Shown here: positions 5,768 to 60,534 of the stretch, in pieces | Layout: every line of letters starts with the position of its first letter | How positions within the stretch are numbered: the first letter of the stretch is position 1 | Source: Mesostigma viride | Taxonomy: Eukaryota > Streptophyta > Mesostigmatophyceae > Mesostigmatales > Mesostigmataceae | DNA length: 64,000 bases | Assembly (NCBI GenBank): GCA_009746045.1 | Contig: RPFO01000080.1 | Coordinates: 1 to 64,000, forward strand | Direction: 5' to 3' | The notes under the pieces: generated by a model | Database searches by the model: none | What the model saw: the letters and a program-made list of their open reading frames with translations, nothing else | What the model was told of the DNA's origin: nothing | Translations under genes and position numbers: made by a program

Positions 5768-5975
5768 TCCCTCTAGGACCTCCCCTTCTCTTTGGCAAGG
5801 CGGTAGGAGATCTCTTTAAACCTGTTCTGGATACCTCTGTAGCGATGCCTACCTCTGATCTCGAACGCTTATTAGTAGATTTACGGCCACTGAGCCGGAA
5901 GCATTAGCTGCCATTGCTGCCCATCCCCAACAATTAGGCAAGCACCCTTGTAAATTTGTAGGTGGATTTTTATAT

Positions 5976-12595: not shown

Positions 12596-12736
12596 CTGTC
12601 TGAGGCAACCCCTACACACCTTAATTCACCCAAGGGGGAGGCCAGGTGCTCCAATGCAGATTTTATATCTGGGCAACAAGAGGGTGATCTCCAGGTTCAT
12701 GGTGGCCCCAGGTCACCTGGAGAGGTACAGGTTCCT

Positions 12737-15700
12737 ATGAAGACGTCCTTGACAGCTGGTGCAGCTGTAAGAATGTCTGACCCCATGCATCCTCGTGCTG
12801 GGCACGAGGGTGGACCTCTCATTTTGAGAGAAACCAATGTACAACCACAGAGGGGTGTGAAGGCCTCTGGTGGTATGCATGTGGTCCCTGCTGGCGGTCC
12901 AGGTGTTGGGCATGAGCAGGGTGACTCAGACTCTGAGTCAGAACAGGATGGAAGACAGCATGGTGATGCTGGACAACCTGACAGCACAGTCCTGACTGTG
13001 CCAGGGACTGCTTCCTCTGTGTACCAGGAGTTGGGTGCCCGAATCCACAACATGTTTGGGCATGCCACTTCTCTGTCAAACAACTTTGCCTTCCGTATGG
13101 GCAGGGCACCCCTTCTTAAGGCGTGTCAGCAAGCTGCCTCACGGTGTAAGTGCCAGTTGTCCTCCAACAAGCCCAGGAAATCACATGCCAAAGCTATACC
13201 TCAGAGCATTGGTGATCTGCAGTGTGATATCCAACACATCAGGGGCATGCAACTGTTGGTGTGCGTGGACAGGTACACAAAATACAAGGTGCTGGAGCAT
13301 TTACCTTCTATGAAGAACAGGTACTTGCTGGCTGCCCTGCAGAATGTAAGAGCCAAGTTTCCTACCACAAGGATCCAGGTGGACATGCAGTTTCAGCATC
13401 TCAAGGGTGATCCCACCCTTCCTGAGTTGCTGGTTACACCTAGGGAGGCTCATGGGCAGCAGGGTGCTATAGAGAGGGCAATCCAGGAGGTCAAGAAATT
13501 GATTATCTCTGAAGACTGGGTACCCTTATCTGCACCTGCACTTGTCAGGAGTGCATGGCTGAGGAACGTGGAGCAGCAGCTGAACAGCAGGGTTAACTTC
13601 TACTATGATGGAGTTGCTGTCAGCCCAATGGGTCTATATCATGGCCTGTGCCCACCACATGTGCTGGAGGGCTGGAAACATGCTGCACATGTCACCTTTG
13701 CCAAGCTGAGGGAGAAGGACCGGGGTTGGAAGATGCTGGAGCCACAAGTGGGTCAGAAGGTCCTAGCTTGGAAGGAACCTAGCCTTTATGGCAAACGTGG
13801 TAGCTGGAGTCCTGGGGTGGTTACCCAGGTTGATGAAGCTAGCCACGCATGCTTGGTCAGCATGGAGGACGAACCAAAGCATGTGCACCGGCTGAGTTGG
13901 TCATATGTCAAGCCTAACCTGATGAATGAGGGCAGTCAGGCACAAGGCTCACAGGACCTGCAGGATTTTCAGGTCCCAAGTGACATCACTGATGCAACGA
14001 CCACATCTGTTGCAGGGGAATCTGTCAGCCCTGGCCAGGTTGCAGAGGTACCTGTTGAACAGGCTGCAAGGTCAACAGCTGGGGAGTCAACTGTCAAGCC
14101 CAAGGCTCTAACCAAGCCCAGGGGGACAAGTTTGGCTGGATTAATTGGGGCTCTGCAAAGGGCCAAGAAGCAGCCCAAGGTAGCCAAGCTCAGGTGGCAT
14201 GGCAATCTGGGGCTGGACACTGCCTTAGAGGTAGACACTAATTCTCAGGTTTCCATCATTGGGACCAGAGCTGCAGCAGGGTACAGCATGACTGAACCCA
14301 GCTATCAGTTTGTGTCTGACTTCAGTGGCGGGGTACACGTGAAGGTACTGGGTGAGGTATCCATTCCTATCCTTGGACAGGACACTGCTTTTTGTGTCTT
14401 GGAGGGCTATCAGGGACCTGCTCTTCTGGGGCAGAATTTCCTATGCCAGGATGGGGTAGTGATCACGTCCTCTCTCCTGACTAAGGAAGGGGCTGGTCAG
14501 GTCCCACTGATTAATTTCAGGACCACTCACCTATCACGTGCAGTAACCAGGACGGTTAAGCGTGTGCAAGTGTGCCAGGGGCAGGAGCCCTTGGTTGATG
14601 ACCTCATATTGCCAGCTGCTAGTCATCCAAGCAGTTTGGGCATTGGTCCTCACTCACTTGCTGGACACAGCCCTATAAACTACCAAGGCCTGGTGAAGCT
14701 CATGTCCTCTCCCATTATGTGTCCCCAGGTCACACTGGGTCTGATTAAATCTGGGGAGGACTGGATCTCCAAGAAATGCGTGGAACCTGTCAATGACCTG
14801 CCTCCTGCACGACGTCTACTCAAGCTCAAGTTTGTCATCAAGATGAAGGAGGTGGACGGGGTCAAGGTACCACACGTCAGGCCAGTACTGAATGAGTTCA
14901 AGGGTACTGGTGAGTGCACCGCTGAGGAGTTGTATACCCCTGGCATGCTGCATGACACTTGGAGGCTGCTGCTGTGTGTATTTCTAGGCCTTCTCAACAA
15001 GGGCTTGGACTATGGCTCAGTGGTGGTAGACTTCAAGAGGGCATTTCTGGAGGGGGATGCAGATGTGGCACAGGAAAAGTGGGAGGGCAAGACGCCTTTC
15101 TATGTCAGGGTGCCTGCTGTATGGAAAAGGGACATTCACACTGAGTTCCTTAAAATCCTCAAGGGCCTGGAGGGCCTGAGGTCAAGTCCAATAATCTGGA
15201 GGGAGACTCTCAACCGTTTCCTGAAGGAGCATTGCAACTTGAAGGTTTCTCCTGTAGACCCCTGTCTGTTTCTGGGGCAATGGGAAGGCCTACCAGTGTA
15301 TGCTTCGCTGCACGGGGATGACCTACATCTGATAGCTCCCACGTCGTGGCTTAAGGAGCTGATCTCCATCATTAAGTCCAAGTTTCCTCTGGGTAGGGAG
15401 CAATGGCAGGTGGAGAATGAGCCTCTCCTGTTTGTGGGCATGGAGGCCACACTGGTGAAGAAGGGGGGGAGTGGCGTATGCTGCTGGTGGGGGGCAACGA
15501 TTATCAAGAGACCCTCATTAGCAAGCTTCCTCCAGTCATCACACAGGCACTGTGTCCCATGGTGAGGGGCATGGTTGCTTGGGTGGCAGGCATTTCCAGG
15601 CCAGACCTTATGGTCATAGCCAGGTTGCCTGATGACATGCTGACAGAGCTAGGGTCTGCCAAGGTGGCTGATCAGGTCAGGGCTTCGTCTGGCATTCTGT

Positions 15701-30086: not shown

Positions 30087-30214
30087 GGGCAAGGGCAAGG
30101 CTGCTGATCATTGACTTGAGCCTGCACACATCCCTGAACCCTGGAGGGTGCCCCCAGGGGTGTGTAATGTAGCTGCTAGTCAGTGACGGCAGTGAGGGGC
30201 AGCCCCATGCTCTA

Positions 30215-33200
30215 GTGACAGAGCCTATTGGACACGATGGGGCAAGCTTGGTTACCACAGAGAGTATGCCAGCTGTAGCTGCAGTGGTTACTCGCCAACG
30301 TGCCCGCCATGGCGGTGCTGAGCCTGAGGTAGGACCTGGTGATGTGGACCCAGGTGGATCTCAGAAGCATTCTGACCGTGCAGGACTGGCACAGGATGGT
30401 CAGGATGAGGATAGGGCTGGAGACAGTCTGACAGGCACGACCCTGGTGCCTCCTGTACATAAGGGATCTGTACATACCTTGAGTGCTAATAATGACAATA
30501 AAAGATTTTCTCTCTTGTATGACATTGCCTCAAGGTTGCATACCATGTTTGGCCATGCAGCTCAGTCTTTGCAAGTTGCTAGACGGCTGGGAGGAAGTGA
30601 GTTGTACTCCATCTGCCAACAGGTTGCTCAAGCTTGCAAGTGCAGGCTAGTTGCTAGAAAGCCCAAGCAGTCTCATGCCAGGACTCCTATTTTGCAGCCA
30701 GGCCATGTGCAGGTAGATATTCAGAGAATCAGGGGTTTGAAGCTGCTGGTGGCAGTGGACAGATATACCAAGTACAAGACCCTAGAGATCCTGCCTGACA
30801 TGGAGAAGCCTACATTGATTGCTGCTCTGAAGTTGACAAGGAGCAGGTACCCTGGGTTGGAGTTGTTGCAGTGTGACATTCAGTTTGAGTGCTGTGAGAA
30901 CCTGCCAGAGTTTCCAGAGTTGCTGATTACACCCAGGGAGAGCCACGGCCAGCAAGGGGTGGTGGAGAGAGCCATCCAAGAGATCAAGACTGTGCTGCTG
31001 GTGGAGAGGATTCCAAGGACGTCATCTGCCATTGTGACATCTGCATGGCTACGTTCTGTGGAGGATAGGCTGAACCTCAGGACTCCCATGTTCTTTGGTG
31101 ACATTGCCATCAATCCTCTTATGCTGCATACCAGGATGCTGCCAGCTGATGCTGAGCAGGCATGGAAGGAGAAGCTAGAGGCCAAGTTCCTCAAGCTGAG
31201 GCAGAAAGACAAGGGCTGGAGTGTCCTAGAACCTAACGTTGGACAACAGGTTGTTGTGTGGAAGGAACCAAGCTTTCCAGGGAAACGTGGCAGCTGGCAT
31301 GATGGGGTGGTGACCCGAGTAGAAGCCGCTGGCCATAAGTGCTGGGTGGCCATTGATGGCTCCCAAGCAGTGCACCGTCTGTCCTGGTCAAAGATCCGTC
31401 CCCGGGGAGGTAATCAAGGAGACCTCTTCCAGGTGCCCGTTGGTGTACAAGGCGGGGGTGACGTGGAGCTTCCTGATCAGGGTGCTACAGCTGTATCGAG
31501 CCCTCAGGGTGACCCTGGCCCGGCCCCTGGGGTACCTTCACATACGGTGGTTGGGCAAGCAGGCGGACAGGCTGCACCTCCGGAACGGCCCGACACCAGG
31601 CCTAGGGGTGTGCGTCTATCAGATATTGTACAGGCTTTGCAAAGAGCCAAGAAGGAGCCTAAGGTGTCCAAGCTTGTCCAGTTGGATGAACCTGAGGTAG
31701 CTGCCATGGAGATAGATACCAATGCACAGGTTTCTGTCATGGGACCTCAGCATACAGGAGAACTGCTGGTCGGAGAACCAAGTTGCCCCTGGGTGTCTGA
31801 TTTCAGTGGTAGGACGCATCTAAGGGTGTTGGGAGAGGTTACTGCCCCTGTCATGGGTGTGGATGTGACCTTCCTTGTCCTAGAGGACTATGATGGCCCT
31901 GTGATTTTGGGTCAGAATTTTCTGGGCAATCCTGGGATTTCTATCAGAGCTACAGCTCTGAGAAGAGATGGCTGGGGGATGATTCCCCTAGAAAATTTCA
32001 GGACAACATTTCCAGTCAGGTGCAGGGCCAAGCCGGTCAAGGGTGTAAAATGGGATGAAGGGGAGGTGCCCCCAGCGGCCAGTTTGGTGATTCCAGCTGT
32101 GTTGCACCCCAGCAGTATTGGCATAACTCACAGGAGCCTTGCTGCACACTCTCCTTTGACATATGACCAGCTGGTCCAAGAGATGAGCTCGCCTACTTTG
32201 TTTGAGGCTTGGAAGCTCGCCTTCTCCAAGGCATTGGAGGAGTGGTTGCAGTTTGAGTGTGCTGCACCAACAGACAGACGTCCCCCAGCATCAAGGAAGC
32301 TTGCTTTGAGATTTGTGCTGAAGAGGAAGGTTGTGGATGAGGTATCAGTGCCCCATGTCAGGCCTGTCCTGAATGAGTATCACGGCACGGGGAGTCTGCC
32401 AGGAGAGGAGCTGTACACGCCAGGGATGCTACACGACACATGGAGAATTTTGCTATGTCTCTACGTGGGGTTGCTGAACAGGGGAGCAGCTATGTCATCA
32501 GTGCTGCTGGACTTCAAGAGGGCATTTTTAAAATCTGATCCAGAAGTGGCCAGGAGGGTGTGGAAGCAGGATGAGCCTTACTGTGTTGAGGTGCCTGCCA
32601 TCTGGAAGCTGGAGCTGCATCAACAATTCCTGGTTATTCTGAAGGGCCTGGAAGGACTCAGGTCGAGCCCAATCATCTGGAGACTCACGCTGCAGGAAGC
32701 TCTGATCAGTGAGTGTGGCTTGAGAGTGTCTTCAGTTGATCCCTGTTTGCTGCTGGCCCAATGGGAGGGTCTGCCAGTGTATGCTAGTTTGCATGGAGAT
32801 GATCTGCATTTGCTAGCCCCCACGACCTGGCTGAAGAAGTTTATTCCTGTCATCAGTGGCAAGTTTTCACTGGGCAAGGAGCTGTGGCAGGAGCCCAACA
32901 AGCCTGTAGTGTTCTGTGGAATGCAGGCTACCCTGTTCAGGAGGGACGGGGAGTGGAGTATCAGGCTTCAGGCTGGAGGAGATTATAAACAGACCATTGT
33001 GAAGGCCTTGCCAGAGAAGATCACCCAGGCTGCAGGACCTGAGTTGAGAGGCATGTGGGCCTGGTTTGCCAGCATCTGTGGTCCGTCTTTGATGGTCCAT
33101 AGCAGAATGCCTGATGAGGTGCTTGAGGATGAGAAGCCTCGAGTCATAGCCCGGTTGGTGGAGAGTACCCCTGATCTGATTTTGTCTGGGATTGACTTTG

Positions 33201-33709
33201 CCCAGCCTATCACCTTGGAGATCTTTGTTGACAGTTCCATGGATGCTCGCCAGGTTACCAAGGTCAGGGGGAGATCTGCTGCTCTGTTTGCTTTTTATCA
33301 GAGCAGGGCAAGTTTGTTCAGCTGGTACAGCAGACTGCAGAAGAGGGTCTGTATCAGTTCAGATGTGGCAGAATGCAGGGCCATATGCGAGGGGATCCAG
33401 TCCAGCCTGTACATAAAGGAGTTAATGCTGGAGCTGGCTTCAGTTACCCCTTGGACCTTGCAGATGGAGACGTTGTTGCTAACAGACAGCATGGGTATGG
33501 TCCAGTTTGTTCACAAGCAGCTGGCCAGAAGCCGGGACCTGGATTATTTGTTGCTGAAGGAGTTGGCCAGTTTGGTTGACTTGAAGCATATCCCTGGCGA
33601 GGAGAACCCTGCTGATGCATTGACAAAGCTGCCACACAAGGCCCCAGCCCAGTACAATGTACTGAGGAAGCTCATGAATGCTGACTGTCAAGTCGGTCTA
33701 TCTGTCTAA
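30215..33709 (+). CDS. E2 pol: integrase, protease-like, RT, RNase H, intact
   Basis: The uninterrupted frame gives 1,164 residues from GTG; the first ATG is at 30,266. Domains in order: disordered leader; pre-integrase zinc motif (H109 and H114, then CKC near 137); integrase D (VDIQRIRG), D (QCDIQFEC), E (GQQGVVERAIQE) with about 29 residues between the last two; integrase C-terminal strand part; protease-like segment with D501-T-N and VILGQNFLG near 565; Copia RT with DFKRAFLKSD, LKGLEGLRSS and HGDD at 860-863; RNase H with FVDSSMD, SSDVAECRA, TDSMGMV and NPADALTK. The arrangement equals E1. It is the only complete pol of this type here and could support E1-like copies. Confidence 0.92.
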   Translation: MTEPIGHDGASLVTTESMPAVAAVVTRQRARHGGAEPEVGPGDVDPGGSQKHSDRAGLAQDGQDEDRAGDSLTGTTLVPPVHKGSVHTLSANNDNKRFSLLYDIASRLHTMFGHAAQSLQVARRLGGSELYSICQQVAQACKCRLVARKPKQSHARTPILQPGHVQVDIQRIRGLKLLVAVDRYTKYKTLEILPDMEKPTLIAALKLTRSRYPGLELLQCDIQFECCENLPEFPELLITPRESHGQQGVVERAIQEIKTVLLVERIPRTSSAIVTSAWLRSVEDRLNLRTPMFFGDIAINPLMLHTRMLPADAEQAWKEKLEAKFLKLRQKDKGWSVLEPNVGQQVVVWKEPSFPGKRGSWHDGVVTRVEAAGHKCWVAIDGSQAVHRLSWSKIRPRGGNQGDLFQVPVGVQGGGDVELPDQGATAVSSPQGDPGPAPGVPSHTVVGQAGGQAAPPERPDTRPRGVRLSDIVQALQRAKKEPKVSKLVQLDEPEVAAMEIDTNAQVSVMGPQHTGELLVGEPSCPWVSDFSGRTHLRVLGEVTAPVMGVDVTFLVLEDYDGPVILGQNFLGNPGISIRATALRRDGWGMIPLENFRTTFPVRCRAKPVKGVKWDEGEVPPAASLVIPAVLHPSSIGITHRSLAAHSPLTYDQLVQEMSSPTLFEAWKLAFSKALEEWLQFECAAPTDRRPPASRKLALRFVLKRKVVDEVSVPHVRPVLNEYHGTGSLPGEELYTPGMLHDTWRILLCLYVGLLNRGAAMSSVLLDFKRAFLKSDPEVARRVWKQDEPYCVEVPAIWKLELHQQFLVILKGLEGLRSSPIIWRLTLQEALISECGLRVSSVDPCLLLAQWEGLPVYASLHGDDLHLLAPTTWLKKFIPVISGKFSLGKELWQEPNKPVVFCGMQATLFRRDGEWSIRLQAGGDYKQTIVKALPEKITQAAGPELRGMWAWFASICGPSLMVHSRMPDEVLEDEKPRVIARLVESTPDLILSGIDFAQPITLEIFVDSSMDARQVTKVRGRSAALFAFYQSRASLFSWYSRLQKRVCISSDVAECRAICEGIQSSLYIKELMLELASVTPWTLQMETLLLTDSMGMVQFVHKQLARSRDLDYLLLKELASLVDLKHIPGEENPADALTKLPHKAPAQYNVLRKLMNADCQVGLSV

Positions 33710-41751: not shown

Positions 41752-43597
41752 CTAGGTCCTAGTTACAGGCGTGTGGGCACCGCGGCCCGAATCGCTATGA
41801 ATGCCATACGCGGTCACACGCGGAGCCCCCACAGGCTTGGGGGTGGTCTCCTTCATCACTACTTGCCATCTATCCTTGCGCACCATCTGCCTCCATATTA
41901 CAGACAAACCAGGAGGTTGCCCGGGGGTGAGCCCGTCACGTCTAGTGTAGCACATGGCCATGCGGAGTCTATCACGAAAAGTCCACGGGTGGCGGCCCTG
42001 CCGCGCGCGGCCGGGGGCACGCCAGGTGAGGACATATCGCCCAGGCTGGGCGGGCTTGGTGCCAGCTAGTCTATCTGATGTATCTACCTGATCTGTGCGG
42101 GCCAGGTGCCCGGCTAAGCCCAGGCGCCTGTGCCTAATAGTGTGGGAAACATAGGGCAAATCAGCGTACAAATCCTCATTACTAATGTGCAAACCAAAGG
42201 GGATGTTAAGGGCCTTGCGCAACATCTTGGTGACGGCGCCGTCGAGTCGTTGCTCCAGCTCCTGCGTCAGTGTCCACGTCTCGGCGCCGTAGGTCAGGAT
42301 CGTCAGAATGACGACCTTGAAGAGGTCACGCTTGACGATCCGGGGTAGGGCGGGGTTGCTCCACCAGCGGCGGTGGTCATGGAGGTGCGCCCACGCCATG
42401 CCGATCCGTGTTGTCATGTCGTCCTCGCAGTCGGGAAGCCAACTGCCGAGCAGCTTGAAGCGGCCTGAAGGAGGGTAGTTGACCTCGGCATCGTCTAAGA
42501 GGCGGAGTGTGGGTGGGGGCCCTGCCATGCCGAAGGCCAGGGCCTCCGTTTTGGGGCTGATTTCTAGACCAACCGCCCGAGCCTCGAGCGCCAGGCAGTC
42601 CAGCCAAAGTTGGGCAGACTCCGGCTTCTCGATGAGCGTGATGTCGTCGGCATAAATGAGGTCAGCTAGTAAATTCTGCTTGTTAGTCGGCCCCCCTTCC
42701 CCAAGCTCGTTCGTGATCGTTAGGCCAGGGGCACGGCCTGCAATGCTAGCAAAGCGAGCACGTGCCTGGCGCATAACATAATCCACTACAATAATAAACA
42801 GGTACGGCGACAGGACGCAACCCTGCCAGACGCCGGTCTGCAGTGGGCATGGCGGGGTAATGCCGTGTTGAGTGCGCACCGAAGTGGTCGACCCCTCATA
42901 CAGCGTGCGGATGACGGTAATCAGGGGAGTGGGGACGCGAGCGCGAGCAAGTACAGCCCATAGAGCGTCCCAGAGGACAGAATCAAAAGCCTTGATGAAG
43001 TCGACGAAGATCAGGATGGCGGGAAACTCACCAGGTTGCAGGAGAGCGATTTCCTCGAAGAGGCGACGCGCGACGAAGATGGCCATGACGGTGTTGCGCC
43101 CAGGACGGAAGCCCATTTGACTTTCCCCAAGGTGACAGTCGAGAGCAGAACGAAGGCGGTTGAGGATCATGCGCATGAACAACTTAAGTGCGGCGCTCTG
43201 GATGCAGACTCCTCTGTAGTTGGCGGGGTTGTCAGGGGAACCTTTGTTTTTGTACAGCATAATACGGTAGCTGTGCTGCCACTCAGGAATCGGCGGCGCG
43301 TCGGCAAGCAGGATCCGGTTGCAGACGTCAAGCAGGAACCCTGTGAGCGCCGTCAGCTTAATCACCGGGGCTGGGAGCTGGTCAGGTCCAACGGCGGCAT
43401 AGAAGCGGAGTTGCTTGGCGGCGGTGCTCAGCTCGAGCTCGGTGAACGGCGGGAGCTCGTTGGGGTCGGCCAGGGGTTCCGTCAGGGCTGGGTACGTGTA
43501 GTCCTGCTCAGCGGCGAGCGGCGTGGGCGGCGCAGGGACGTCCGCCGGCGCTACTGCCAGGCGTGCGGCCGCCAGAGGGCCAAGCGGCGGAGGCGGC
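41752..43597 (-). pseudogene. LINE ORF2, reverse-transcriptase half
   Basis: It reads on from the endonuclease half once the solo LTR is removed. RT motifs: MGFRPGRNTVMAIF, FVDFIKAFDSV, GVWQGCVLSPYLF and the active site YADD (codons at 42,643-42,654). After the RT, LTYGAETWTL and HRRLGLAGHLAR form the usual C-terminal part of several LINE clades. It copies LINE RNA at a nicked target. The frame runs to the stop at 41,752 and is open from about 43,597. As it stands the half lacks its own start. Confidence 0.88.
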
Positions 43598-44078
43598 AGT
43601 TAGAATACGAATGACCGACTTGGTACAATGCTTGAGAACACAGAGTGCTGAGAGCAATGAATTGCTTGGTTCATTAGAAAATAGGTTTACCCTTTATCAA
43701 CGTTCCTCTCACTGGCTGCGCCGCCAGTGACCATTGGGTGCAGACCGTTGGCCCGAGGCCGCACGATGACAGGTAGCAGTCTAGTCACTGCATCGTGTGA
43801 TCACAGATCAATGCACGATGCAGTACGGTCCCTATCTAGGATACTCTAGTACCGTCCAATGACAGGACACTACCTATACTGGGTACTGACATCTGTCACG
43901 TACCCCAGTACCCAAAGTACCTATCTAGGGAAACGTATGCGACTCGACTAGCATTCCTATCTGCATAGCCCACGTGGTATTTATATTCACATACCAACGT
44001 AGGTTTACAAGGCTTATTCATACGTTGTATTCACAATGCCTTTGAGACTTAGTCTACAGCAAAGCATGGAGACTAACT
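43598..44078. mobile_element. Solo LTR of the AG...CT type inside LINE ORF2
   Basis: It reads AGTTAG at the left and CTAACT at the right, with GCGGC duplicated at 43,593-43,597 and 44,079-44,083. At 481 bp with no coding, it has the LTR terminus seen in E1 and E2. TATTTATATT near 43,978 would suit a promoter on the plus strand. The exact 5-bp duplication shows integrase-type insertion followed by LTR-LTR recombination, or a mini element. Confidence 0.85.
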
Positions 44079-50030: not shown

Positions 50031-53000
50031 TCAGTTCCAGGCAGGTGCAGCAGCACCATCAATGTCCAGAGCATTCTGGTTGTCACCCCGAAGCCGGTGC
50101 TGCCGGCCACCAATACCTGCCCCGCAAACAGGGCACCTGGCCTCCGCCATGGCGCCACCACACTCCCCGATGGCATACGGGTGACCGTTGGGGCAGCGGT
50201 ACCACCCTCCCGCCCGCACCTGCCCCCTCATGGCACCCACCACCGCATCCATCTCCTCCCTGGCCAGCCTCTCCTCCTGCTGGGCACCGGTTCGGACGCC
50301 ATACTCCCCCGCCCGCAGCGCGCGGTGCATCCTCGCTTGGAAAGCATTGAAGTCCGGGCACCCCTCCGGCATGTACATGCAGCCCGTCTCCCTCTCAAAC
50401 GCAGGAAGCTCCCGCTCCTTCCCACCGGGCAGCACCGAGCACTTGTGGCCGGATTGCAAGGCATTGACGCTGCCCAGTGCCCGCAGGCACAGCAGCCGCA
50501 GCCCTGTCTCTGACACCTCCCGGATGAAGCGCTGCAGCCATCCCTTGACAGCAGGCGGCCCCTTGTTCGCGGCTCCGCCCCAATACTCCTCTGGGAACAC
50601 AAACGCGTTCAGCGCTGTATCCACGTCCAAGTAGTCCTGGCCGAAGAACAGGGTGACCAAGACCTCGCCCGTCATGAGCTTGAGGTGGTCCGCCATCAGG
50701 TCGTCCAGGGACTGGAACCCCTCGCGCAGGGCGCACAGCTCCTCCCTGCGGTCCGCGAACAGGCGCAGTTGCACCGCCTGCCGGACCACCGCCCCCTTGT
50801 TCGCGTCGGTGATCGCGAAATCGTCCTTGGCCGCACACCGCGTCAGCATGGACGCCATCATGGCATGCTCCTGGCCGCTGCCGTGGGTGATTGCCAGCAC
50901 GCCACGCATCTGTCCAGCCACAACCGGGTCAAACTCCGCCATCAGCTCCAGGCAACGCGAGGGCGTGGCGTCTGCCAGCTGTTCGTCCCCCACCAGGAAG
51001 CAGCAGAGGGCAGTCGCAAAGCTGACAGGGACGTGCAGGCACTCGAGGATGGCCTTTGCGAGGGCCTTGCCCATTGCCCTCAGCTTCTTCGTGTGCTGGT
51101 CGTTGGCCTGGGCATGCTGTGGCGCCTTCTTGGGCAGAAACGCCACGCCTTCCTGCAGTTGAGAAGGGGGCAAAACGTCCTCTCGCCCCTCCCGCCCTTG
51201 CTCGAACAGCCCAACCTCTGGCAGCACCACGGCTTGGAAGAACCGGTCCAGCACCTCGGACAAGGGGACCCTTATGCCGCCGCAATCCACCGAGAACACC
51301 ACCCGGAGGTCGAGCCCATCAGCCTGAAACACTTCCAGCACCTCCCGCACCAGCTGCGGCCGGTTGTCAAGATCGGTCACCTTCAGCAGGTGCGCTCGCC
51401 TCGCAACGCGCACGGGGCAGCGCCGCAGGCTCTCCAGAAAGCTGCTGAGCGCGTGCATGCGCCGCTGCTGCTCCACTGCCACCTGCGTCAGGTCACGTGC
51501 AAGGAAACCGTGCGGGTCACTAAGAGCGTCCTCGGCAGACGGCCGGCCGGCAGGGTCCACCTGAAGCAGGCTGGATGCCACACCCCGCAACGCAATTGTC
51601 CAGGGATCACCCTGGGATGGGCCGCCCGTCGAGCTGGCATCCACGGCCACCCGCCTGCCCTGGGCATCCTCCAGGCGGCCGGCGACAACGTTCCAGAGCG
51701 GCAGGGACCCTGTCAGGATCTCCAGCAGCATCACACCCAGGGACCACATGTCCTGCGCAAAGGGCCACTGCTTGGCCGACGGCTGGGAAGTGAGCACCTC
51801 TGGGGCGGCATAGGCCACTGTAAAGCCGCCAAGCTGGGTGGCCAGGGTGGTCTTGAAGGCCCTACTGACATCGTGGCTGACGCCAAAGTCACACAGCGCG
51901 ATTTGGCCATCGTCTTGCAGAAGAATGTTCTCCGGCTTCAGGTCTCGGTGGACCACGCCCTTGCGGTGGATGAACGCGACCGCCTGGAAGACTTGCCGCA
52001 TCGTCGCCCACACCTGCTGGCGCTCCTCCAAGCCCAGTGGTAGACCATCCAGGGTCCTCGCCTTGATGCGTTCGAACCAGGCGCGCAGGCTCCCGTTCTT
52101 GCAGTAAGGCATCTGCAGATAGGCCAGGCCTCGGTCGAAGAAAATCCGCTCCAGCCGGATCACCAGCGGGTGCTGCAGCGCCTGCAACCGCCCGCCCTCC
52201 CGCCTCAGCTCCCTCTCTTGGCACAGCTCCTTGATCACCCACATGCACCCCTCTCGATCCTCCACCACCCTAACCTTGGAACTGCCCAACGGCTGCCCCA
52301 TGCCGTCGCGGAAACACGCCAGGGACCAGTCAGGGTCGATGATGTCATTGCTGCCCTTGCCGGCACTACCAGGGAGCGCCTTGCTTAGCCGATTGGCCCG
52401 TTCTGGCAACACGGCCGCCTCGGGGTAGTATTGCGCCAGCTTTTGTGCGGCTTCCTGTGCCTCCGTCATCAGCTTCCTTATACTGGCGTCGATCTCCCTC
52501 TGCCGGCTTTCCAGAGTGTCCAGCTGTGCCCTCAGCTCCTCTGCTTCCTTGGCCTTTTCTGAAAACTCAGCAATGTCCAGATGGGCCTTTGCCAGCGTTT
52601 TCTGCTTGCGAACCTCAAGCAGGTCACGTTGCAGCACGCCCAAACGGACCTCGGTCGGGTGCAGCCCTTGCCGCGCCGCCATCACGTCCCTTAGCTCCTT
52701 CTTCTTCGTATCCACAAGCCCTTGCAGCACGCGCGCATGCTCCGCGTCCTCCTCCGGCGTCTCCCCCTCCATCACCTTGACGGCAGCGCCCATGACCCGC
52801 GCGCCCGCGTCACGAGCCTTGCCCAGTTTCTCCCGCACGCCCTCCGTCACTACCCGCTGGCGTTCCAGGCACTTTGCCAGCTGCTCCATCGCTGCACGCG
52901 TCGCCGCCGCTGCTGGCGCCAGCTGCTCCTCGCACTCCTCGAGAGCGCTCCCAGCCAACACCAACGCTTCGTGAACATCATCCACCTGGGGGCCTTGCGC

Positions 53001-53813
53001 CTCATTTAAGGATTCGGGCCCAGCGCCCCCCCCCACGGCTGTGCTCAAGCCAGACAGCTCCTCCACCCTCCGCTTTTGCCGCACCCTCTCCCCGGCCAAC
53101 GCCGCCTTCCTGGTGTAGCTCTCCTCCAGCTGCCGCAAGGATGCCAGGTGGTCCTCCAGCGCCTGGTCCCTGGCAGATAGCGCCGCACCATCCAGGGGGT
53201 TTTCCCTGGCCCTCGCAACGGTCTCCATCAGCACTGCCTCTTTCTGCCGGCAGGTCTCGGCCAGTTTCCGTCCCTCCTCATCGGTCACCCTCAGGCCGGT
53301 GCGCACGGTGGCGAGCTCCAGCCCGGACGCCCACAGCGCGCGGCCGATGTTCTGGGTGGTCTGCGCCAGCTGCCACACATCCGATGGGCGACAGAAATCC
53401 CCAAGACTTGCCAGCGCCTCCGTCAACTGCGTGGGGGGGTCTTGCGGGGGCAGCTGCGATGTCTCTTCAAAGGTTTGCGAGAAAAACTTGCGTTTCCTGT
53501 TGAGGCCCCGCAGCACCCTGGGCTCCTCCCTGCAGGTGCATAAAGGCCAACACACACCTCCGCCATCCCCCTCCCTCCTCCCCCCCCCTCCGCCCCCCGC
53601 CCCCCCCCCTCCCCCATCCCCCTGGCCCGCCCGCCCCCCGCCCACTCGCCCGCCCGCCCGCCCGCCCGCCCGCCCGCCCGCCCGCCCGCCCGCCCGCCCG
53701 CCCGCCCGCCCGCCCGCCCGCCCGCCCGCCCGCCCGCCCGCCCGCCCGCCCGCCCGCCCGCCCGCCCGCCCGCCCGCCCGCCCGCCCACCCGCCCGCCCG
53801 CCCATCCAACCAA
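50031..53813 (-). CDS. Protein kinase - HECT E3 ligase - RZ zinc finger fusion protein
   Basis: One open frame of up to 1,260 residues. The first 90 or so residues only translate the (GGGC)n repeat. A splice acceptor (TATGCACCTGCAG) at about 53,535 and the first in-frame Met after the repeat (residue 196) are both possible limits, so the N-terminus is uncertain. Residues about 120-500: long coiled coil. About 505-790: Ser/Thr kinase with K528 (WVIKEL), HRDLKPEN (D624, N629), D642-F-G and APE ending at 672; the Gly loop is poor. About 835-1,175: HECT-like domain with VVFSVDCGGIRV, GKALAKAI, DANKGAVV and the Cys at 1,145 (ETGCMYMPEG) in the thioester position. About 1,205-1,240: RZ finger (WYRCPNGHPYAIGECG then CPVC). 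It probably ubiquitinates targets and may be controlled by phosphorylation. The next gene upstream encodes a deubiquitinase. Confidence 0.85.
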   Translation of the reverse strand: MVGWAGGRVGGRAGGRAGGRAGGRAGGRAGGRAGGRAGGRAGGRAGGRAGGRAGGRVGGGRAGQGDGGGGGAGGGGGGRREGDGGGVCWPLCTCREEPRVLRGLNRKRKFFSQTFEETSQLPPQDPPTQLTEALASLGDFCRPSDVWQLAQTTQNIGRALWASGLELATVRTGLRVTDEEGRKLAETCRQKEAVLMETVARARENPLDGAALSARDQALEDHLASLRQLEESYTRKAALAGERVRQKRRVEELSGLSTAVGGGAGPESLNEAQGPQVDDVHEALVLAGSALEECEEQLAPAAAATRAAMEQLAKCLERQRVVTEGVREKLGKARDAGARVMGAAVKVMEGETPEEDAEHARVLQGLVDTKKKELRDVMAARQGLHPTEVRLGVLQRDLLEVRKQKTLAKAHLDIAEFSEKAKEAEELRAQLDTLESRQREIDASIRKLMTEAQEAAQKLAQYYPEAAVLPERANRLSKALPGSAGKGSNDIIDPDWSLACFRDGMGQPLGSSKVRVVEDREGCMWVIKELCQERELRREGGRLQALQHPLVIRLERIFFDRGLAYLQMPYCKNGSLRAWFERIKARTLDGLPLGLEERQQVWATMRQVFQAVAFIHRKGVVHRDLKPENILLQDDGQIALCDFGVSHDVSRAFKTTLATQLGGFTVAYAAPEVLTSQPSAKQWPFAQDMWSLGVMLLEILTGSLPLWNVVAGRLEDAQGRRVAVDASSTGGPSQGDPWTIALRGVASSLLQVDPAGRPSAEDALSDPHGFLARDLTQVAVEQQRRMHALSSFLESLRRCPVRVARRAHLLKVTDLDNRPQLVREVLEVFQADGLDLRVVFSVDCGGIRVPLSEVLDRFFQAVVLPEVGLFEQGREGREDVLPPSQLQEGVAFLPKKAPQHAQANDQHTKKLRAMGKALAKAILECLHVPVSFATALCCFLVGDEQLADATPSRCLELMAEFDPVVAGQMRGVLAITHGSGQEHAMMASMLTRCAAKDDFAITDANKGAVVRQAVQLRLFADRREELCALREGFQSLDDLMADHLKLMTGEVLVTLFFGQDYLDVDTALNAFVFPEEYWGGAANKGPPAVKGWLQRFIREVSETGLRLLCLRALGSVNALQSGHKCSVLPGGKERELPAFERETGCMYMPEGCPDFNAFQARMHRALRAGEYGVRTGAQQEERLAREEMDAVVGAMRGQVRAGGWYRCPNGHPYAIGECGGAMAEARCPVCGAGIGGRQHRLRGDNQNALDIDGAAAPAWN
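53641..53812. repeat. (GGGC)n tetranucleotide repeat
   Basis: About 40 tandem copies of CCCG/CGGG units with three or four single changes. It overlaps the 5' end of the kinase-HECT-RZ frame and reads as Ala-Gly-Gly-Arg there. Possible intron, 5' UTR or promoter. Confidence 0.95.
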
Positions 53814-54437
53814 CCAAGTTTCCCTCTACCCACCACCCATCAAGCAATTCACAGCGAAGTCGAGAGGTCCTTGATCAGTTGCTGCGGTTAGCCCAAGTGA
53901 GTCCGGCTTCCACCGGCAAAAAGCGGCATGGAGCAGGAATGCTTGCTGCAACACACAACAACTTGCACCCATGACTACCAGGATCATCCGATCAGGGCAA
54001 TTCTCCAACATTGCATATCTCCTCGTACGATACCGTCGTGCATTCTTGAACAAAATGCATTTTTTTTTTTTTTTTTCCCCGTGTTTTGTCAAGGTTTTGT
54101 AAAGTGTTCTGCAATGAGTGACGGAAATAGCCACACAGACAAATTTAAGGCAAAGGCAAACCCCTGTGAAACAGTATGGTTAGAAAAAATCTCAGCAAGT
54201 TCCCCACATGAAGCCACAGGTAGAGATGGACGGGTGGTCAATTGCCAACAAATGAAGCCACGCAAAAATTGCCTGTGGGACAAAAACACGAAGAGGTAAA
54301 ATCGGCTTAGCATAAGGCTGCAAGGGAACCAAGATCCCATGTTTCTGGCCGCAAGTAGCAAAGTGCCAGCTACCATCACAGCAGCACGATTTTGGTTGTA
54401 AGCTCAAAATCACGAGATTTGCAGACATTCCAACAGA
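53814..54437. other. Gap between the two host genes
   Basis: It must hold the promoter or first exon of the kinase-HECT-RZ gene and the 3' end of the deubiquitinase gene. A T17 run lies at 54,060-54,076. I found no TATA box I would trust. Confidence 0.5.
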
Positions 54438-54575
54438 CTACTCGCACCTTTCTGCTTCTACTGCTGCTCCAGCTTTTGCAGATGCCGGCTCCTCTGTGCG
54501 CGGATTTGAGGTGGTCACCGGCTCCGCTGGGTGCTCAATCCCCAGCGAGGCCTCCCACCGCCCGACCCGCAGCGC
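54438..54575 (-). CDS. UBP12: UBP12-like gene, terminal exon
   Basis: Acceptor CTGCCTCCACCAG. Encodes RWEASLGIEHP, then a 30-residue Ala/Glu-rich tail, and stops at TAG (54,438-54,440). Confidence 0.82.
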   Translation of the reverse strand, partial: ALRVGRWEASLGIEHPAEPVTTSNPRTEEPASAKAGAAVEAERCE

Positions 54576-57500
54576 CTGGTGGAGGCAGAAGGCAGCCAAG
54601 GCAATTGTCACTAAAGACCAGGGGCATTTTCTAAACGCTTGACCACAAGAAATGCCAACCAGTCAGAAACAGGTTGGCTACCGTCCACTCTGTAGGGGGG
54701 CCGGTGCGGCTGCCACAAATAGCTGCAAGATGATTGTCAGCAATTCGCCTGCTGCATTCCATTTACAGCTACTCATGCAGTTCACGCCCGCATTCTGTCC
54801 CACAAGAATTGCTAGCGAGGCTTGCGCTGGCACAAATGAAAAAGGCCGGGCAGCAGTACGGGAGAGTGCTCACTATTGCCACAAAATTCCAGGATGCCTC
54901 GCTTATCTGGGGACCCATCATGGCTGGACTTCGTTGGAAACCTTGCTAGTGCGGCACAGATTGATGGGGAGACGTTATTGCTTGGCTTGCATTCTGCCTG
55001 TCCTCCCGCTCTTCTTGTGCTACCGCTCTCACGTCTTTAATTTACCTTAGTCAATATACAGGTATATGGTAGTATATGGGAAGGTGCCAGGAGATCTGTC
55101 CTGGGGTGTATGTATAGATAGTCGACGCGGGCCCAGGGTCATTCAGAAGGCCAACCCTACCTGGTACCGCAGTGCCACCACGTCGTCGTCTTTAAGCTGA
55201 ACTGGAACATCTTCGACCACGATGGCGAATTTCCACTTGACGAACTCCTCGCTGGCCACGCCCAGCTTGGTCTGGACACGTGCCTTGACGGATGCCAGCG
55301 TCTCCTGCTCGCCCACCACCAGCAGGAAGGGGTGGCCGAACGCAGCCATCTGGGTGGAGGCATGCATTCCAAGTAGTTTCATACAAACCAATTAACCGGG
55401 AGAAGGGGCCGGTAAAGCACAAGTCAGGAGGAGGCAGCAAAGAATACGTCGGTGGGGGAGGGGGGGGGGGCAGTAATGCACAAGTCAGGGTCAACACGTT
55501 CAAGTGGTTAAAGCTTGTTCACCCAACGGATAGGAAAGAGGTAATGGAAAGCCCCATCAACGTCACCAGTAGTGTTGCAGCAAAATAGGCGATTTTCTTC
55601 ATAATGCAGCCGTGATGAGCTGGCATCATAACTGAATGGAACTTGCTTGTTCGTGTTTCCAGCTCCACGTCCATAGCTGCAAGTCACTTCGGCAACATTA
55701 TTTTCCAGATAACCATATTCTGGTTTCTTAAGTCAAAGGATTTTTTCCAATGCGTGGCTGTCCCTTACTTGGCGCTGCCATGCGGTCGAAAGGGACTACG
55801 GTAAGTTTGGATAAGATGACCGGTGGGGCCGAGCTAGGATGACTTACATGGCATGAGCTATAGGTTTGCATGCAGCCCTATGCCTCTGACCATCACCAGC
55901 CCAACCACGATCAACAAGCGTGGACAGGGTCTCGCACAACACATCGCTGCATTGGGCTGATATTCGGTACCCAAGTCGACGATACCAACAAATAAGGGAA
56001 CATATAAGTCCACGCTGTGCAAGGCACAAAATTGGCCAGCTAGGGTTAGGTTCCAAAGAAGGCAGTTCTCTCTGAAAAGGCCTCATGCTGCATGGAGTGA
56101 CGCCTGGATGTATCTTGCAGTATCCCTTACGCGTGTTTTGCCTCATCATTTCTGGTGGTTCAAAAGCCAGATCTTTACTAACAATATTTTTTCTTTTAAC
56201 ACAGCCATGATATTAGATCCACACATGCTATATATCCAAATTGAATTGTGCTCTCAAGACATACTTCCCCCCCCCCCCCAAAAAAAAAACTCTCATCGAT
56301 AAGAGGCCATAGTAAATAAAGAGGATCTTTCAATGGGCCAGAAGGGGCCGAGAAGCGCTGGGAGGGGAAACGGCGGACGAGATGCTCACCAAGTTGTTGC
56401 TGCCGTCCGCTTCCACTCTCCGCATGTGGCAGACAGGGATAATCCTGCCCTCTGTCCCAGGGTGCGTTCCTGTCTCCACAGCCTGTGAGAAAAACAACAT
56501 ATCAGTGACAACTTTCGAACGTGATTGACGGGAAAATGGGGAGTTTCCAGGAACAATTTACACATAGACGCGGGAAGTGTTGCGGGAAAAACATGGGGAG
56601 CATACTAGCAAAGCCACAAAGACCATAGCCATGGTAACTTGCACTAACGTGGTAGCGTACAAACCTGAAACCGATGCTCATGCTGGCACCAGGACATATA
56701 ATATGCGGACCTTCCACTGACTGTCCAACGTAGCTGTGGAGGCTGTCACGTTAATGTGCATGCTGAGCTTTGCACAACAATCACTTTGATGGATAAAGAT
56801 GTTTCGACCCAAGGCCCTTCAACTCCGTGCAAACATTTCAGGGCCACGGTTACGCGTTCATCTTGTCCTACAATACATAACGAAAATGGCTGCAGACCAC
56901 TTTTCAGATCGCAGCTTACCACCAGCTGAGATTCATGCAGGCACTGCCATGAGACTCCTTTGTCACATGCATGGCAACCACGTGCGCTGCGGTTTTCAAT
57001 AGTGGACAAAATGCATACTACCATCAATGCTCCGATACATCCAGTTTATTCACACTCATCTGGGATTTGTCTATCGTTGCTCGCAGGACACAGATGGTGC
57101 GCAGAAAAAATGCACACCTACTGCATGAACATCATGCCCTTAAATGAGCTGCCCCTCACTCGTCAGTTCACCTGCAGGGTCCAGTAGGCAGCATCCACGT
57201 CCTCCATGACCTCGGTCGGCGAGAACACCTTGTTGATGCGGCCGTCGAGTATCTTGGTCAGGCAGAGCTCAGAAAAGTGGGCGCACGCGGGCTCGGCCTT
57301 CACCAGCTTGAGCAGGTCACCGGCCGTGCTCCCTTGCGACAGTTCAACGCGGAAGCGCGCCACCTGCATGTGCCATTCATGCAGGCAATGGCATTTCTAT
57401 TAACTGCGAAATTCAGGGTAGCCAGACTCTTCAGGGTAGCCAGACTCTTTACTGCACCAAGGAGTGGGGTACAAAACCGTTTTACGTACAAAAGGTACGC

Positions 57501-59141
57501 CACATCTGGCTGCCAATGCTCATGGGAACGTTTATTGTTTGTCGAAAGGATAGCCTTTACCCCGTACGGAAAACACAGGAAGGGTGGGCGGGAAAAGAAA
57601 AGAGGCCGACCTTAGCTGGGTGGGTTTGTTTTTGTCTTTTTGCGTGGCACGCGGTCTTGCCCCGGACAGCATTTTTGCCACCCAAATTTTTTCCGTCTGA
57701 ACAAATGATGCAGATTGGTGATTCCATTTGCCGGCGGCTGATGTAAGATTGCCGGGGCTCTTAGATCACATATGGCGTGATATAAAAGTCTTAGATACTT
57801 AATCACTACATAATGAACAAAAAAACCTAGCCAGTGGCAAGATTGCATCGCAAGGTAGCTCTTGCCACCTCACCAGGAAACTGGCCAAACATTATGCCAC
57901 TGCCGACCCGGATCAGGCCGCACCGGCCTCAAAAGGTTTGTCACATCAACCCTACAACCTAGCCATAGCGGTTATCCTTCCATCTCACTGTAAAGAAACT
58001 ATATTCCGAGAACCAAAAACAGTGGATGGCAGAGTCGGTAAACGTCAGAAAGTGATTAGGCACGGCTCTGAATGTAACAGCGAGCTCTCCTACTCAGTGC
58101 TGGTACTGTTATTGGTAAAACTGCTATTGGTTGTCATAGGGTGCTGGTGCTGCAATTCAGGAGTTAAGCAGGGACAGAGCGCTAAGCTCCCCTGGCCTCT
58201 CTGCCATATGATGATATCTACGCAGGACGCTTGGTGGAGGGCTCATGGTGGAGGCACCGCTAAGGTTGAGTTCGAGCTAGTCCAGCTGTACCCTCCTACA
58301 TACCAGGCTTTAAACGATTGCATTCAACATCTCATAATAAAAATCAATTTGGTTATTCACGGGGTCGAAACCACAAATGTTGAAATGCACGCACCTGTTC
58401 AGTACGCTGGTCATGCACGGACACCATGGCGGTTCTCGTGCACTTGGCCGCTGGCTGGGGGGGTTCCACCACTTCATAGTACAGGATGTCAGACGTCTGG
58501 GCGCCGTGGGCCAGCATGTCCATTACAAGCACTCCTCGGCCATTCTCCTCACTGCGTATGGGCCGCCACCTGGGCGCATTCTGGGCACAGTCGTGTGCGG
58601 TGAGCCGGATCTTGGAAGGGTCGCAAGTTCGGGCATTGGCCACCTCCTTCGGAAGCTGCAGTGCCACCTTCGACACCACATGATTGTACTCGTCGCAGCT
58701 GGACCTGCATGACATCAGAATCCGGTCAGCACGCCAAGGCAATATGCATGCACACGTCAAGTGCAGCAAGGACCAAGCACTGCCTTGCGTTGCCATACGA
58801 ACACGCGAACCCGTTACGGGCTCCTGGGCGCAGCTTGGGCAACTTCCACTACAGACTGAAAATCTACATGCATCATATATAAACCGTGAAAGCTGCTTCA
58901 GTGTTCCACCAAGGGCACTGAACATACAACCTAGCCGCCACCCCTAGCCTTTCCTCCAGCAAGAGACCACTTACAGCTCCAGGACAAAAGTGTCCCTGTC
59001 GGGATTGGACAGCTGGCGGAACCGCACGCGCCGCATGTTCCGAACATGCTCGAAAAATGACGGCACGTCAGGGAAGCGACACGTGGCGGCCAAATCGGGG
59101 GATAGCACCTTTTGGACACAGAGGATGTCGCCTGTCCCGAG
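54438..59141 (-). CDS. UBP12: USP7/UBP12-like ubiquitin-specific protease, C-terminal ubiquitin-like region (6 exons, 5' end missing)
   Basis: Six exons on the minus strand: 59,141-58,975; 58,704-58,395; 57,363-57,172; 56,482-56,390; 55,349-55,161; 54,575-54,438. All introns start GT and end AG, and the frame runs through every junction. Matching stretches to the plant UBP12/13 and animal USP7 tail: GDILCVQK, PDVPSFFEHV, DPSKIRLTAHDC, QTSDILYYEVV, AYWTLQ, FVKWKFAIV and RWEASLGIEH. This is the ICP0-binding and USP7_C2 ubiquitin-like block, which binds substrates and activates the catalytic domain. The MATH and catalytic USP parts should lie further 5', but I found no such exon in the remaining 4.8 kb. 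The tail after LGIEHP is Glu/Ala-rich and lacks the usual activating end peptide. Confidence 0.9.
55161..55349 (-). CDS. UBP12: UBP12-like gene, fifth visible exon
   Basis: Acceptor CTCCACCCAG, donor GTAGGG. Encodes FGHPFLLVVGEQETL and EEFVKWKFAIV, strongly like the last ubiquitin-like fold of USP7. Confidence 0.9.
56390..56482 (-). CDS. UBP12: UBP12-like gene, fourth visible exon
   Basis: Acceptor TTTTCTCACAG, donor GTGAGC. Thirty-one codons in phase, with RIIPVCHMRRVEADG. Too short to be found as a long ORF; supported by splice sites and frame. Confidence 0.8.
57172..57363 (-). CDS. UBP12: UBP12-like gene, third visible exon
   Basis: Acceptor GCACATGCAG, donor GTGAAC. Encodes VELSQGSTAGDLLKL and DVDAAYWTLQ. 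Confidence 0.88.
58395..58704 (-). CDS. UBP12: UBP12-like gene, second visible exon
   Basis: Acceptor TGTCATGCAG, donor GTGCGT. Encodes DPSKIRLTAHDC and TSDILYYEVV. A split Leu codon joins it to the previous exon. Confidence 0.88.
58975..59141 (-). CDS. UBP12: UBP12-like gene, first visible exon
   Basis: Acceptor TACTGCAG before CTCGGGACAGG; donor GTAAGT after GAGCT. Encodes GTGDILCVQK and PDVPSFFEHV of the USP7 ubiquitin-like block. Confidence 0.88.
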
Positions 59142-59425
59142 CTGCAGTACACGGTAAAAGAATGACACAGCCCAGACATCGCACATCATTCTATTACTAT
59201 TACATTAGGCATCGCGACATCGTGTCACGTAGCCTACGACCGAAGTGGCATAGGCAATGGTGGTCATGAGTGAAGTACAATGCAGAAAACCCCTCTGTCT
59301 GGTGTTGCAAGTGAAGGACCCTGACCCGTCACTCCATTGCAGCTATGCCGCACAGAGCGCGAGGGCTCCACTGAATTGGCACGTGGCCTGCGCGTGGCGT
59401 TCACGATTCATCTTCTTTCAGATGA

Positions 59426-59590
59426 TTTAAGGATCTGGCTTCAACACAAACCCGACGCCAGGTTGCTCCTATCGCACGCATTTAAGGATCTGGCTTCAAC
59501 GCAAACCCGATGCCAGGTTGCTCCTATCGCACGTATTTAAGGATCTGGCTTCAACACTACCCCGATGCCAGGTTGCTCCTATCGCACGTT
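59426..59590. repeat. 55-bp tandem repeat, three copies
   Basis: Units start at 59,426, 59,481 and 59,536, each with TTTAAGGATCTGGCTTCAAC. A few substitutions separate the units. Confidence 0.92.
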
Positions 59591-59873
59591 GTCATTTCTC
59601 GCCTTTTGCGGAACGCCCAAGCAGGGTGGCCCTTATGCCCAGGCCAGCCATGAGGCGGCCTACCATGTGAGTTACACATGGTGTACCATGGATGGCAGAT
59701 GGTCCAACCATGGCATGATGCATTAGAGCATCTCTTCGATGCTCTAATTTTATGATTGTGCTTGGATCGCAGTTGGGAAAGGTGTACACGCGGTCGGTTC
59801 CGGTGCTTCAATACAAAAGCAGCTGAATGGGTGCACACACTACTGTATGCACATACTACGCTTCCACTATATT

Positions 59874-60082
59874 AATAAGATACCCGTTAGTATACTGTTA
59901 CTGCCATAGTAGTAATAAGGTACCTGTTAGTATCTGTTACTGCCATTCATAGTAGTAATAAGGTACCCGTTGGTATACTGTTACTGCCATAGTAGTGATA
60001 AGATACCTGTTAGTATCTGTTACTGCCATAGTAGTAATGTGGTCTCCGTTGGTATACTGTTACTGACATAGTAGTGATAAGA
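59874..60082. repeat. Minisatellite of about 38-44 bp
   Basis: About five units with TAGTAATAAGGTACC, TTAGTATCTGTTACTGCCA or close variants; alternate units differ (TATACTG versus TATCTG), suggesting a two-unit higher-order repeat. Confidence 0.85.
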
Positions 60083-60534
60083 TTAGCGGCATGACGACAG
60101 CAGGCCGTGGCTCAACAAGCAGCTTCGATGGACATCGAACCACGACATGCATGCATATATACACGGTGCTATCAAGCAGGATTGTTTGCGTGCCGAGCTC
60201 AGACCATGGTAAGTGGCACCTTGCTGAATTAAAGGACAAGGAGAATCAGAACATCAGCGTCTTGTTGATTCTCTATGAAATGGTCCAGGCATGCGCCCAG
60301 GCTAAATTTTCAAGTCCTGGTACCAGCATCCCCATTGTTTGGGGAAGGGAAGAAGTGGGATTTGATACATCAGGGAAGCACACGATGTCCGGCTGTCCGG
60401 TGACACGACTGAAAAACTGCAACCTCGGGTAGAAGACATTGACAAAAAGATTTCTTGTCAGAGACGGCCAGCCGTGCTAATATAAAGTGCGGATGCATGT
60501 TTGAACTATCGGCTTTCTGTGAAAGTAGTTTACT

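Follow-up and report, generated by a model that had tools for sequence, protein, structure and literature searches.

What kind of protein is encoded on the minus strand at positions 50,031-53,813 of contig RPFO01000080.1 of the single-celled alga Mesostigma viride, where one open reading frame (ORF) joins a protein kinase, a HECT ubiquitin ligase domain and an RZ zinc finger? We analysed the first 64,000 nucleotides of this contig (the window) and propose that they encode the last 1525 residues of a ubiquitin ligase of modular build, composed of a USP7-derived front, a helical region, a kinase, a HECT part and an RZ finger. The domain content, the exon reading, the motif residues and, by prediction, the HECT fold stand as results, and the order of the domains suggests an unusual sensor-driven ubiquitin ligase. 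That such a ligase works in the way set out below is a tentative proposal, plausible but falling a little short of probable.

Gene structure and domain content

The ORF (residues of which are counted here from the TTG at 53813) comprises 1260 codons without a stop. Its top match in the protein databases was a public M. viride gene model of 2051 amino acids (EukProt, jgi/Mesvir1; here P0002), which is 100% identical over the query. Seven exons, all with GT-AG borders, were assigned in the window (Table 1), and their spliced translation is identical, letter for letter, to P0002 residues 527-2051; we infer that the splice junctions are used in the window gene. ORF residues 1 to about 95 are intronic and six more, USP7-like, exons lie upstream, and therefore the TTG was rejected as the protein start. 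The first Met after it is residue 196, and the first 100 codons of the core exon contain no in-frame ATG. Thus, of the single kinase-HECT-RZ polypeptide announced in a preliminary description of this locus, the continuity holds (one exon without a stop), but not the beginning, since the ORF makes up only the C-terminal portion of a longer, USP7-like fusion.

Pfam searches of the kind proposed in that description recovered all three domains: Pkinase (ORF residues 517-767, E 7.4e-41), HECT (862-1073, E 8.9e-9) and ZnF_RZ (1194-1246, E 2.7e-21). The HECT match covers profile positions 7-205 of 306 and scores away from chance (35.8 bits, the curated cut-off being 23.9); when eight family fragments were scanned one by one, all eight passed E 0.01 for this profile (best E 8.4e-18). 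In the predicted structure the match extends over both lobes of a bilobal HECT fold, which is not C-terminal, as the RZ finger comes after it. The kinase retains its Lys, HRD and DFG residues, with HRDLKPEN from residue 622 and DFG from 642, as had been read at first. The same is true of the RZ finger, where C1207, H1211, C1218, C1227, C1230 and H1239 have not only the order but, as judged from the family alignment and the published residues, exactly the spacing of RNF213 (C0, H+4, C+11, C+20, C+23, H+32), so that four zinc ligands, a nucleophile Cys and a base His are all present. Since kinase, HECT and RZ share one exon without a stop, separate kinase and ligase genes, named beforehand as the finding that would speak against a fusion, are very unlikely and were rejected.

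The helical region was delimited by long helices in the AlphaFold model, with predicted local distance difference test (pLDDT) scores mostly of 66-92 and a low gap at exon residues 163-207. It matched no Pfam family above its cut-off, and a fold search with the whole core returned only kinases among the 50 matches listed.

No convincing match to the USP catalytic exons was found in the 64-kb window (best E 0.4 or worse), and these exons therefore lie beyond it, after an intron of >4.8 kb, or else the assemblies differ. Upstream of the first exon found there are tandem repeats of 55 bp and 40/83 bp (59425-59589 and 59873-60083). Within the last intron, a GCCC array of 45 units (53625-53803) largely codes for the first ~95 residues of the ORF. 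One Mesostigma genome paper used Iso-Seq and RNA-seq for gene prediction, and transcript data thus exist.

The USP7-like front end and the family of fusions

P0002 starts with USP-type sequence, and the ICP0-binding (PF12436, residues 393-636, E 4.4e-41) and C2 (PF14533, USP7_C2, residues 656-859, E 1.1e-19) domains of USP7 precede its kinase; only the C-terminal part of this USP7-like region lies in the window. Pfam placed USP, ICP0-binding and C2 domains in USP7 order in P0002 and in the models P0003, P0007 and P0009, with a MATH domain ahead of USP in two of the scanned paralogues (P0007 and P0009), and the front ends matched human USP7 with E 2.3e-52 (P0007), 5e-44 (P0003) and 6e-41 (P0009). 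The active-site Cys of USP7 is replaced in all four models covering it, by His in P0007, Pro in P0003 and Gln in both P0009 and P0015 (the latter assigned by the same motif as in P0009); P0002, P0004, P0005 and P0006 begin past the Cys box, and that of the window gene lies outside the data. The catalytic His box is altered in 5 of 5 covering models: no His stands at or beside the catalytic site in P0002, P0003 and P0007, and one lies within a column or two of it in P0006 and P0009. Judging the Cys from paralogues and the His box from P0002, the catalytic Cys and His of a USP7-type deubiquitinase are not in place. The front end has therefore probably lost deubiquitinase activity, and by extension we infer the same loss for the window's own copy.

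Pairwise comparison of the seven USP7-fused models, the closest of which form the trio P0002-P0004, gave identities of 41-57% for the USP7 C-terminal part (80-81% within the trio), 46-71% for the helical region (91-93%), 76-84% for the kinase (97-98%) and 80-85% for HECT (96-97%), P0009 (41-68%) being left out of the last range as its model departs from the family inside HECT. In the linker between the USP7-like part and the core, identity was 18-61% in 20 of 21 pairs. The front end is thus the most variable part, and outside the trio the helical region is nearly as variable. This pattern is consistent with diversifying selection acting on sensors, with gene conversion in the kinase-HECT part, or with a relaxation of constraint. 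The last of these would make the USP7-like part a decaying remnant with no sensor role, a view of the front end only, and compatible with our reading of the core. Loss of the active-site residues and divergence faster than that of kinase and HECT argue for it, and, as the helical region diverges nearly as fast, speed alone is no mark of a sensor. However, the frame is intact across 623-1090 residues ahead of the join in all seven models, and USP7_ICP0_bdg and USP7_C2 are still recognised in each of them (E 3e-16 to 5e-42); we regard a decaying remnant as possible, though rather unlikely.

The family extends beyond the USP7 fusions. Among the best 120 of 283 protein matches (7991 candidates scored), the same core was found behind ankyrin repeats (P0010) and behind a piece of clathrin heavy-chain propeller and linker plus ankyrin (P0008), and in P0011, P0012 and P0013 Pfam recognised nothing before it (for P0011, from precomputed domains). 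The clathrin heavy-chain propeller and linker motifs of P0008 (residues 174-232, before ankyrin) could be a gene-model fusion. Two models, P0014 (ankyrin-kinase) and P0009 (MATH-USP7-kinase), depart from the family within HECT, and P0015 is without a kinase. Outside Mesostigma, the kinase-HECT pair occurred, among the matches listed, in Cymbomonas tetramitiformis (P0016) and three metagenome proteins. P0016 has no RZ in its model, reading ..RAGGWY before departing from the family; P0018, a related gene model with the same first 153 residues, had no HECT match listed. The metagenome proteins P0017 and P0122 carry RZ, and P0019 is cut at RZ. A further protein search yielded six proteins, with P0122 as the one new core member, and an alignment-based search yielded one, already known. 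In a tree of 15 cores the USP7-fused clade received a support of 97/100, and the Cymbomonas and metagenome rows were placed unsurely because of their long branches. The best 80 of 557 relatives in a search of genome contigs matched only query residues 245-604, i.e. the kinase and the stretch preceding it. A viral or prokaryotic origin of the core was considered and rejected: two scans of viral contigs, a weak test as each used two short peptide patterns, revealed no relative, and tblastn with the HECT-RZ part against a phage collection revealed none.

The HECT and RZ cysteines and the proposed mechanism

The preliminary description had made HECT the main catalyst, with its thioester Cys at residue 1145. 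This residue is indeed a Cys and starts the strand preceding the C-lobe helix in the structure model, but its placing is approximate: depending on the anchor, it lies 0 to 3 residues from the catalytic position of HECT domains. It aligns with the catalytic Cys of E6AP if residues are counted from where the VIA alignment to 1c4z ends, with NEDD4 it is two residues off, and the HMMER alignment to a HUWE1 entry puts the catalytic column at Glu1142, three residues away. Nor is Cys1145 conserved in the family: the column holds Cys in 7 of 15 aligned rows (all six USP7-fused rows and P0008), and otherwise Ser (4), Met (2), Tyr (1) or Ile (1). We examined 19 proteins, and all 13 with a complete RZ have its nucleophile Cys and base His; of the remaining six, the models of P0009, P0014, P0015 and P0018 lack an RZ, P0016 leaves the family and P0019 is cut at RZ. 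As the HECT Cys is missing in 8 of 15 members and the RZ dyad in none of the 13, HECT as the main catalyst is not supported. Seven residues after Cys1145 lies Cys1152 (50358-50360), which is the more widely kept of the two, with Cys in 12 of 15 rows.

According to PMC11549300, the ligands of human RNF213 RZ are C4505, H4509, C4525 and C4528, with C4516 proposed as nucleophile and H4537 as base; for mouse RNF213, PMC12075652 reports Cys4462 as the nucleophile, identified by cross-linking to a probe, and the docking of UBE2L3 by a separate domain at the C-terminus. By analogy, the simplest reading is that RZ is the constant catalyst and that the HECT part may serve as a dock for the ubiquitin-conjugating enzyme (E2), as does that RNF213 domain. 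The USP7-derived front, probably an inactive deubiquitinase, would bind partners or ubiquitin, and the helical region would link it to an apparently active kinase, followed by HECT and RZ. Binding of a partner to the front end would lead the kinase to fire, its target being either the ligase part or that partner. A charged E2 would dock on the HECT N-lobe, and ubiquitin would pass to RZ Cys1218, directly or, in the USP7-fused clade, first via Cys1145; RZ, with His1239 as base, would then hand it to the substrate. In this scheme the kinase may gate ligase activity; the preliminary description had suggested gating of HECT by the kinase, and a possible role in immunity or stress.

Several observations weigh against this proposal. 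Most members found come from one species, and some models break off. RZ and its preceding linker have low confidence in both structure models; in P0017 and P0122 a zinc-ligand His of RZ is replaced by Ser, and the kinase of P0122 reads DFW instead of DFG. Finally, six of the seven rows with the HECT Cys are USP7-fused (P0008 is the seventh), and HECT catalysis may therefore still matter there. In P0017 and P0122, a Cys two residues past the first RZ ligand could replace the lost His.

An ordinary HECT ligase, in which Cys1145 bears the thioester, with RZ as a zinc module in an accessory role and HECT regulated by the kinase, would agree with the significant profile, the fold covering both lobes, the position of Cys1145 before the C-lobe helix and in register with E6AP, and its presence in the USP7-fused rows and P0008. 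We consider it unlikely, given the rows without this Cys, the three-residue shift against HUWE1 and a domain lying away from the C-terminus, a position that HECT domains need according to PMC4327156. If HECT catalysis was handed over to RZ, the break of this rule is easy to understand.

Ubiquitin relays are known, a comparable one being that of MYCBP2, and in the USP7-fused clade two cysteines could act in turn (E2 to HECT Cys1145 to RZ Cys1218 to substrate), both occurring together in all six USP7-fused rows and P0008. Such a relay is nevertheless quite unlikely: six members with a complete RZ (P0010-P0013, P0017, P0122) keep the RZ dyad without the HECT Cys, so that it is not needed for the family, and the position of RZ in the structure models is unreliable. 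A gene-model chimera, i.e. a USP7-like gene joined by annotation to a neighbouring kinase-HECT-RZ gene, is decidedly improbable, for although an unspliced transcript would shortly meet a stop after the last donor (..AERCE, then stop), ending the USP7-like part a few codons later, and conservation of the linker is low, six more proteins with a kinase (P0003-P0007, P0009) have this join in their models, four of them sharing only 41-57% with the window gene or each other over the USP7 C-terminal part, and the core exon lacks an early in-frame ATG.

Elsewhere in the window, Pfam recognised pieces of retroelements (RVT_1, a weak RVT_2 below cut-off, an integrase with chromodomain, and gag). An open frame of 1178 codons (30173-33709, plus strand) had no Pfam match at E 0.001.

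Table 1. Features assigned in the window
Feature	Position	Strand	Basis
Exon, USP7 ICP0-binding region (P0002 residue 527 on); first exon of the gene found in the window	58975..59141	-	spliced translation identical to P0002
Exon, end of ICP0-binding region and start of USP7_C2	58395..58704	-	spliced translation, Pfam
Exon, USP7_C2	57172..57363	-	spliced translation, Pfam
Exon, USP7_C2	56390..56482	-	spliced translation, Pfam
Exon, USP7_C2	55161..55349	-	spliced translation, Pfam
Exon, USP7-type C-terminal end and linker; donor AAAG/GTGCGAGTAG at 54448	54448..54575	-	spliced translation
Intron (GT-AG) between USP7-like part and core; contains GCCC repeat and first ~95 codons of ORF	53530..54447	-	
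Single 3.5-kb core exon: helical region, kinase, HECT, RZ, stop codon (50031-50033)	50031..53529	-	
Helical region, ORF residues about 96-489	52347..53528	-	AlphaFold long helices
Protein kinase domain, ORF 517-767; K528, D624, D642 present	51513..52265	-	
HECT domain, both lobes, ORF about 802-1167	50313..51410	-	profile and predicted fold
Cys1145 codon, near HECT thioester position	50379..50381	-	structure model, fold alignment, family alignment
RZ zinc finger, ORF 1194-1246	50076..50234	-	Pfam; RNF213 match
Cys1218 codon, equivalent of RNF213 nucleophile Cys4516 (human) / Cys4462 (mouse)	50160..50162	-	residue spacing
Retroelement pieces	41752-43599; 12596-15565; 5859-7370; 1950-2801	-; +; +; +	Pfam

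Relation to known ligases and receptors

No paper describing the kinase-HECT-RZ combination was found among the matches listed in the open-access literature searched. The architecture is not described in the accessible portions of papers on Mesostigma that mention HECT, and neither HECT nor ubiquitin occurs in the main texts of two Mesostigma genome papers.

Elsewhere, RZ fingers are familiar chiefly from the defence of mammals against pathogens (RNF213, ZNFX1), and the lineage of Mesostigma lies at the streptophyte base; a plant-lineage system therefore makes the question of an older role directly testable. If the HECT part merely loads the RZ finger, two supposedly separate classes of ligase can be combined, and the published rule against C-terminal neighbours of HECT fails. 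A fusion of pseudo-deubiquitinase, kinase and ligase would also represent a candidate receptor that belongs to none of the known families of plant receptors. One may go further and imagine that this streptophyte alga has a receptor-like family, with copies of host proteins (dead USP7, a clathrin heavy-chain piece, ankyrin repeats) serving as exchangeable baits that are joined by splicing to a kinase-HECT-RZ core of one exon. The HECT domain would have become an E2 dock for the RZ nucleophile (a hybrid class of ubiquitin ligase), and the dead USP7 would act as a decoy for pathogen factors that target USP7. In this full form the idea is speculative and, on balance, unlikely.

Plant nucleotide-binding leucine-rich repeat receptors (NLRs) with integrated decoy domains pair a signalling part that stays constant with front ends that vary and look like host proteins. 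The Mesostigma family would be analogous to them in its constant core and varied host-like fronts (USP7; the clathrin heavy-chain piece in P0008). Unlike in plant NLRs, its output would be kinase activity and ubiquitin transfer, and Pfam found no NB-ARC domain in P0002-P0010, P0012 and P0013. With USP7 it shares MATH, USP, ICP0-binding and C2 domains in order (P0007 and P0009), but the active-site Cys is lost in all four models covering it, and a kinase-HECT-RZ core occupies the C-terminus.

Among ligases, the window protein resembles RNF213 and ZNFX1 in its RZ finger, down to the nucleophile and base, and its proposed HECT dock would parallel the E2 dock of RNF213, which is likewise separate from RZ. 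It differs in that RZ follows a kinase and HECT instead of the AAA core of RNF213 (PMC12075652) or the helicase-type AAA pair of a ZNFX1-type protein (P0123); no AAA or helicase ATPase domain was among the Pfam matches of P0002 at E 0.01. With HECT ligases (HUWE1, NEDD4, UBR5, E6AP) it has profile and fold in common over both lobes, but its HECT domain is not C-terminal, the catalytic Cys varies in the family, and RZ follows. The RZ finger thus resembles that of RNF213 and ZNFX1 and the fold that of HECT ligases, and the protein answers the full definition of neither. The hybrid catalytic mechanism, if shown, would represent a new class.

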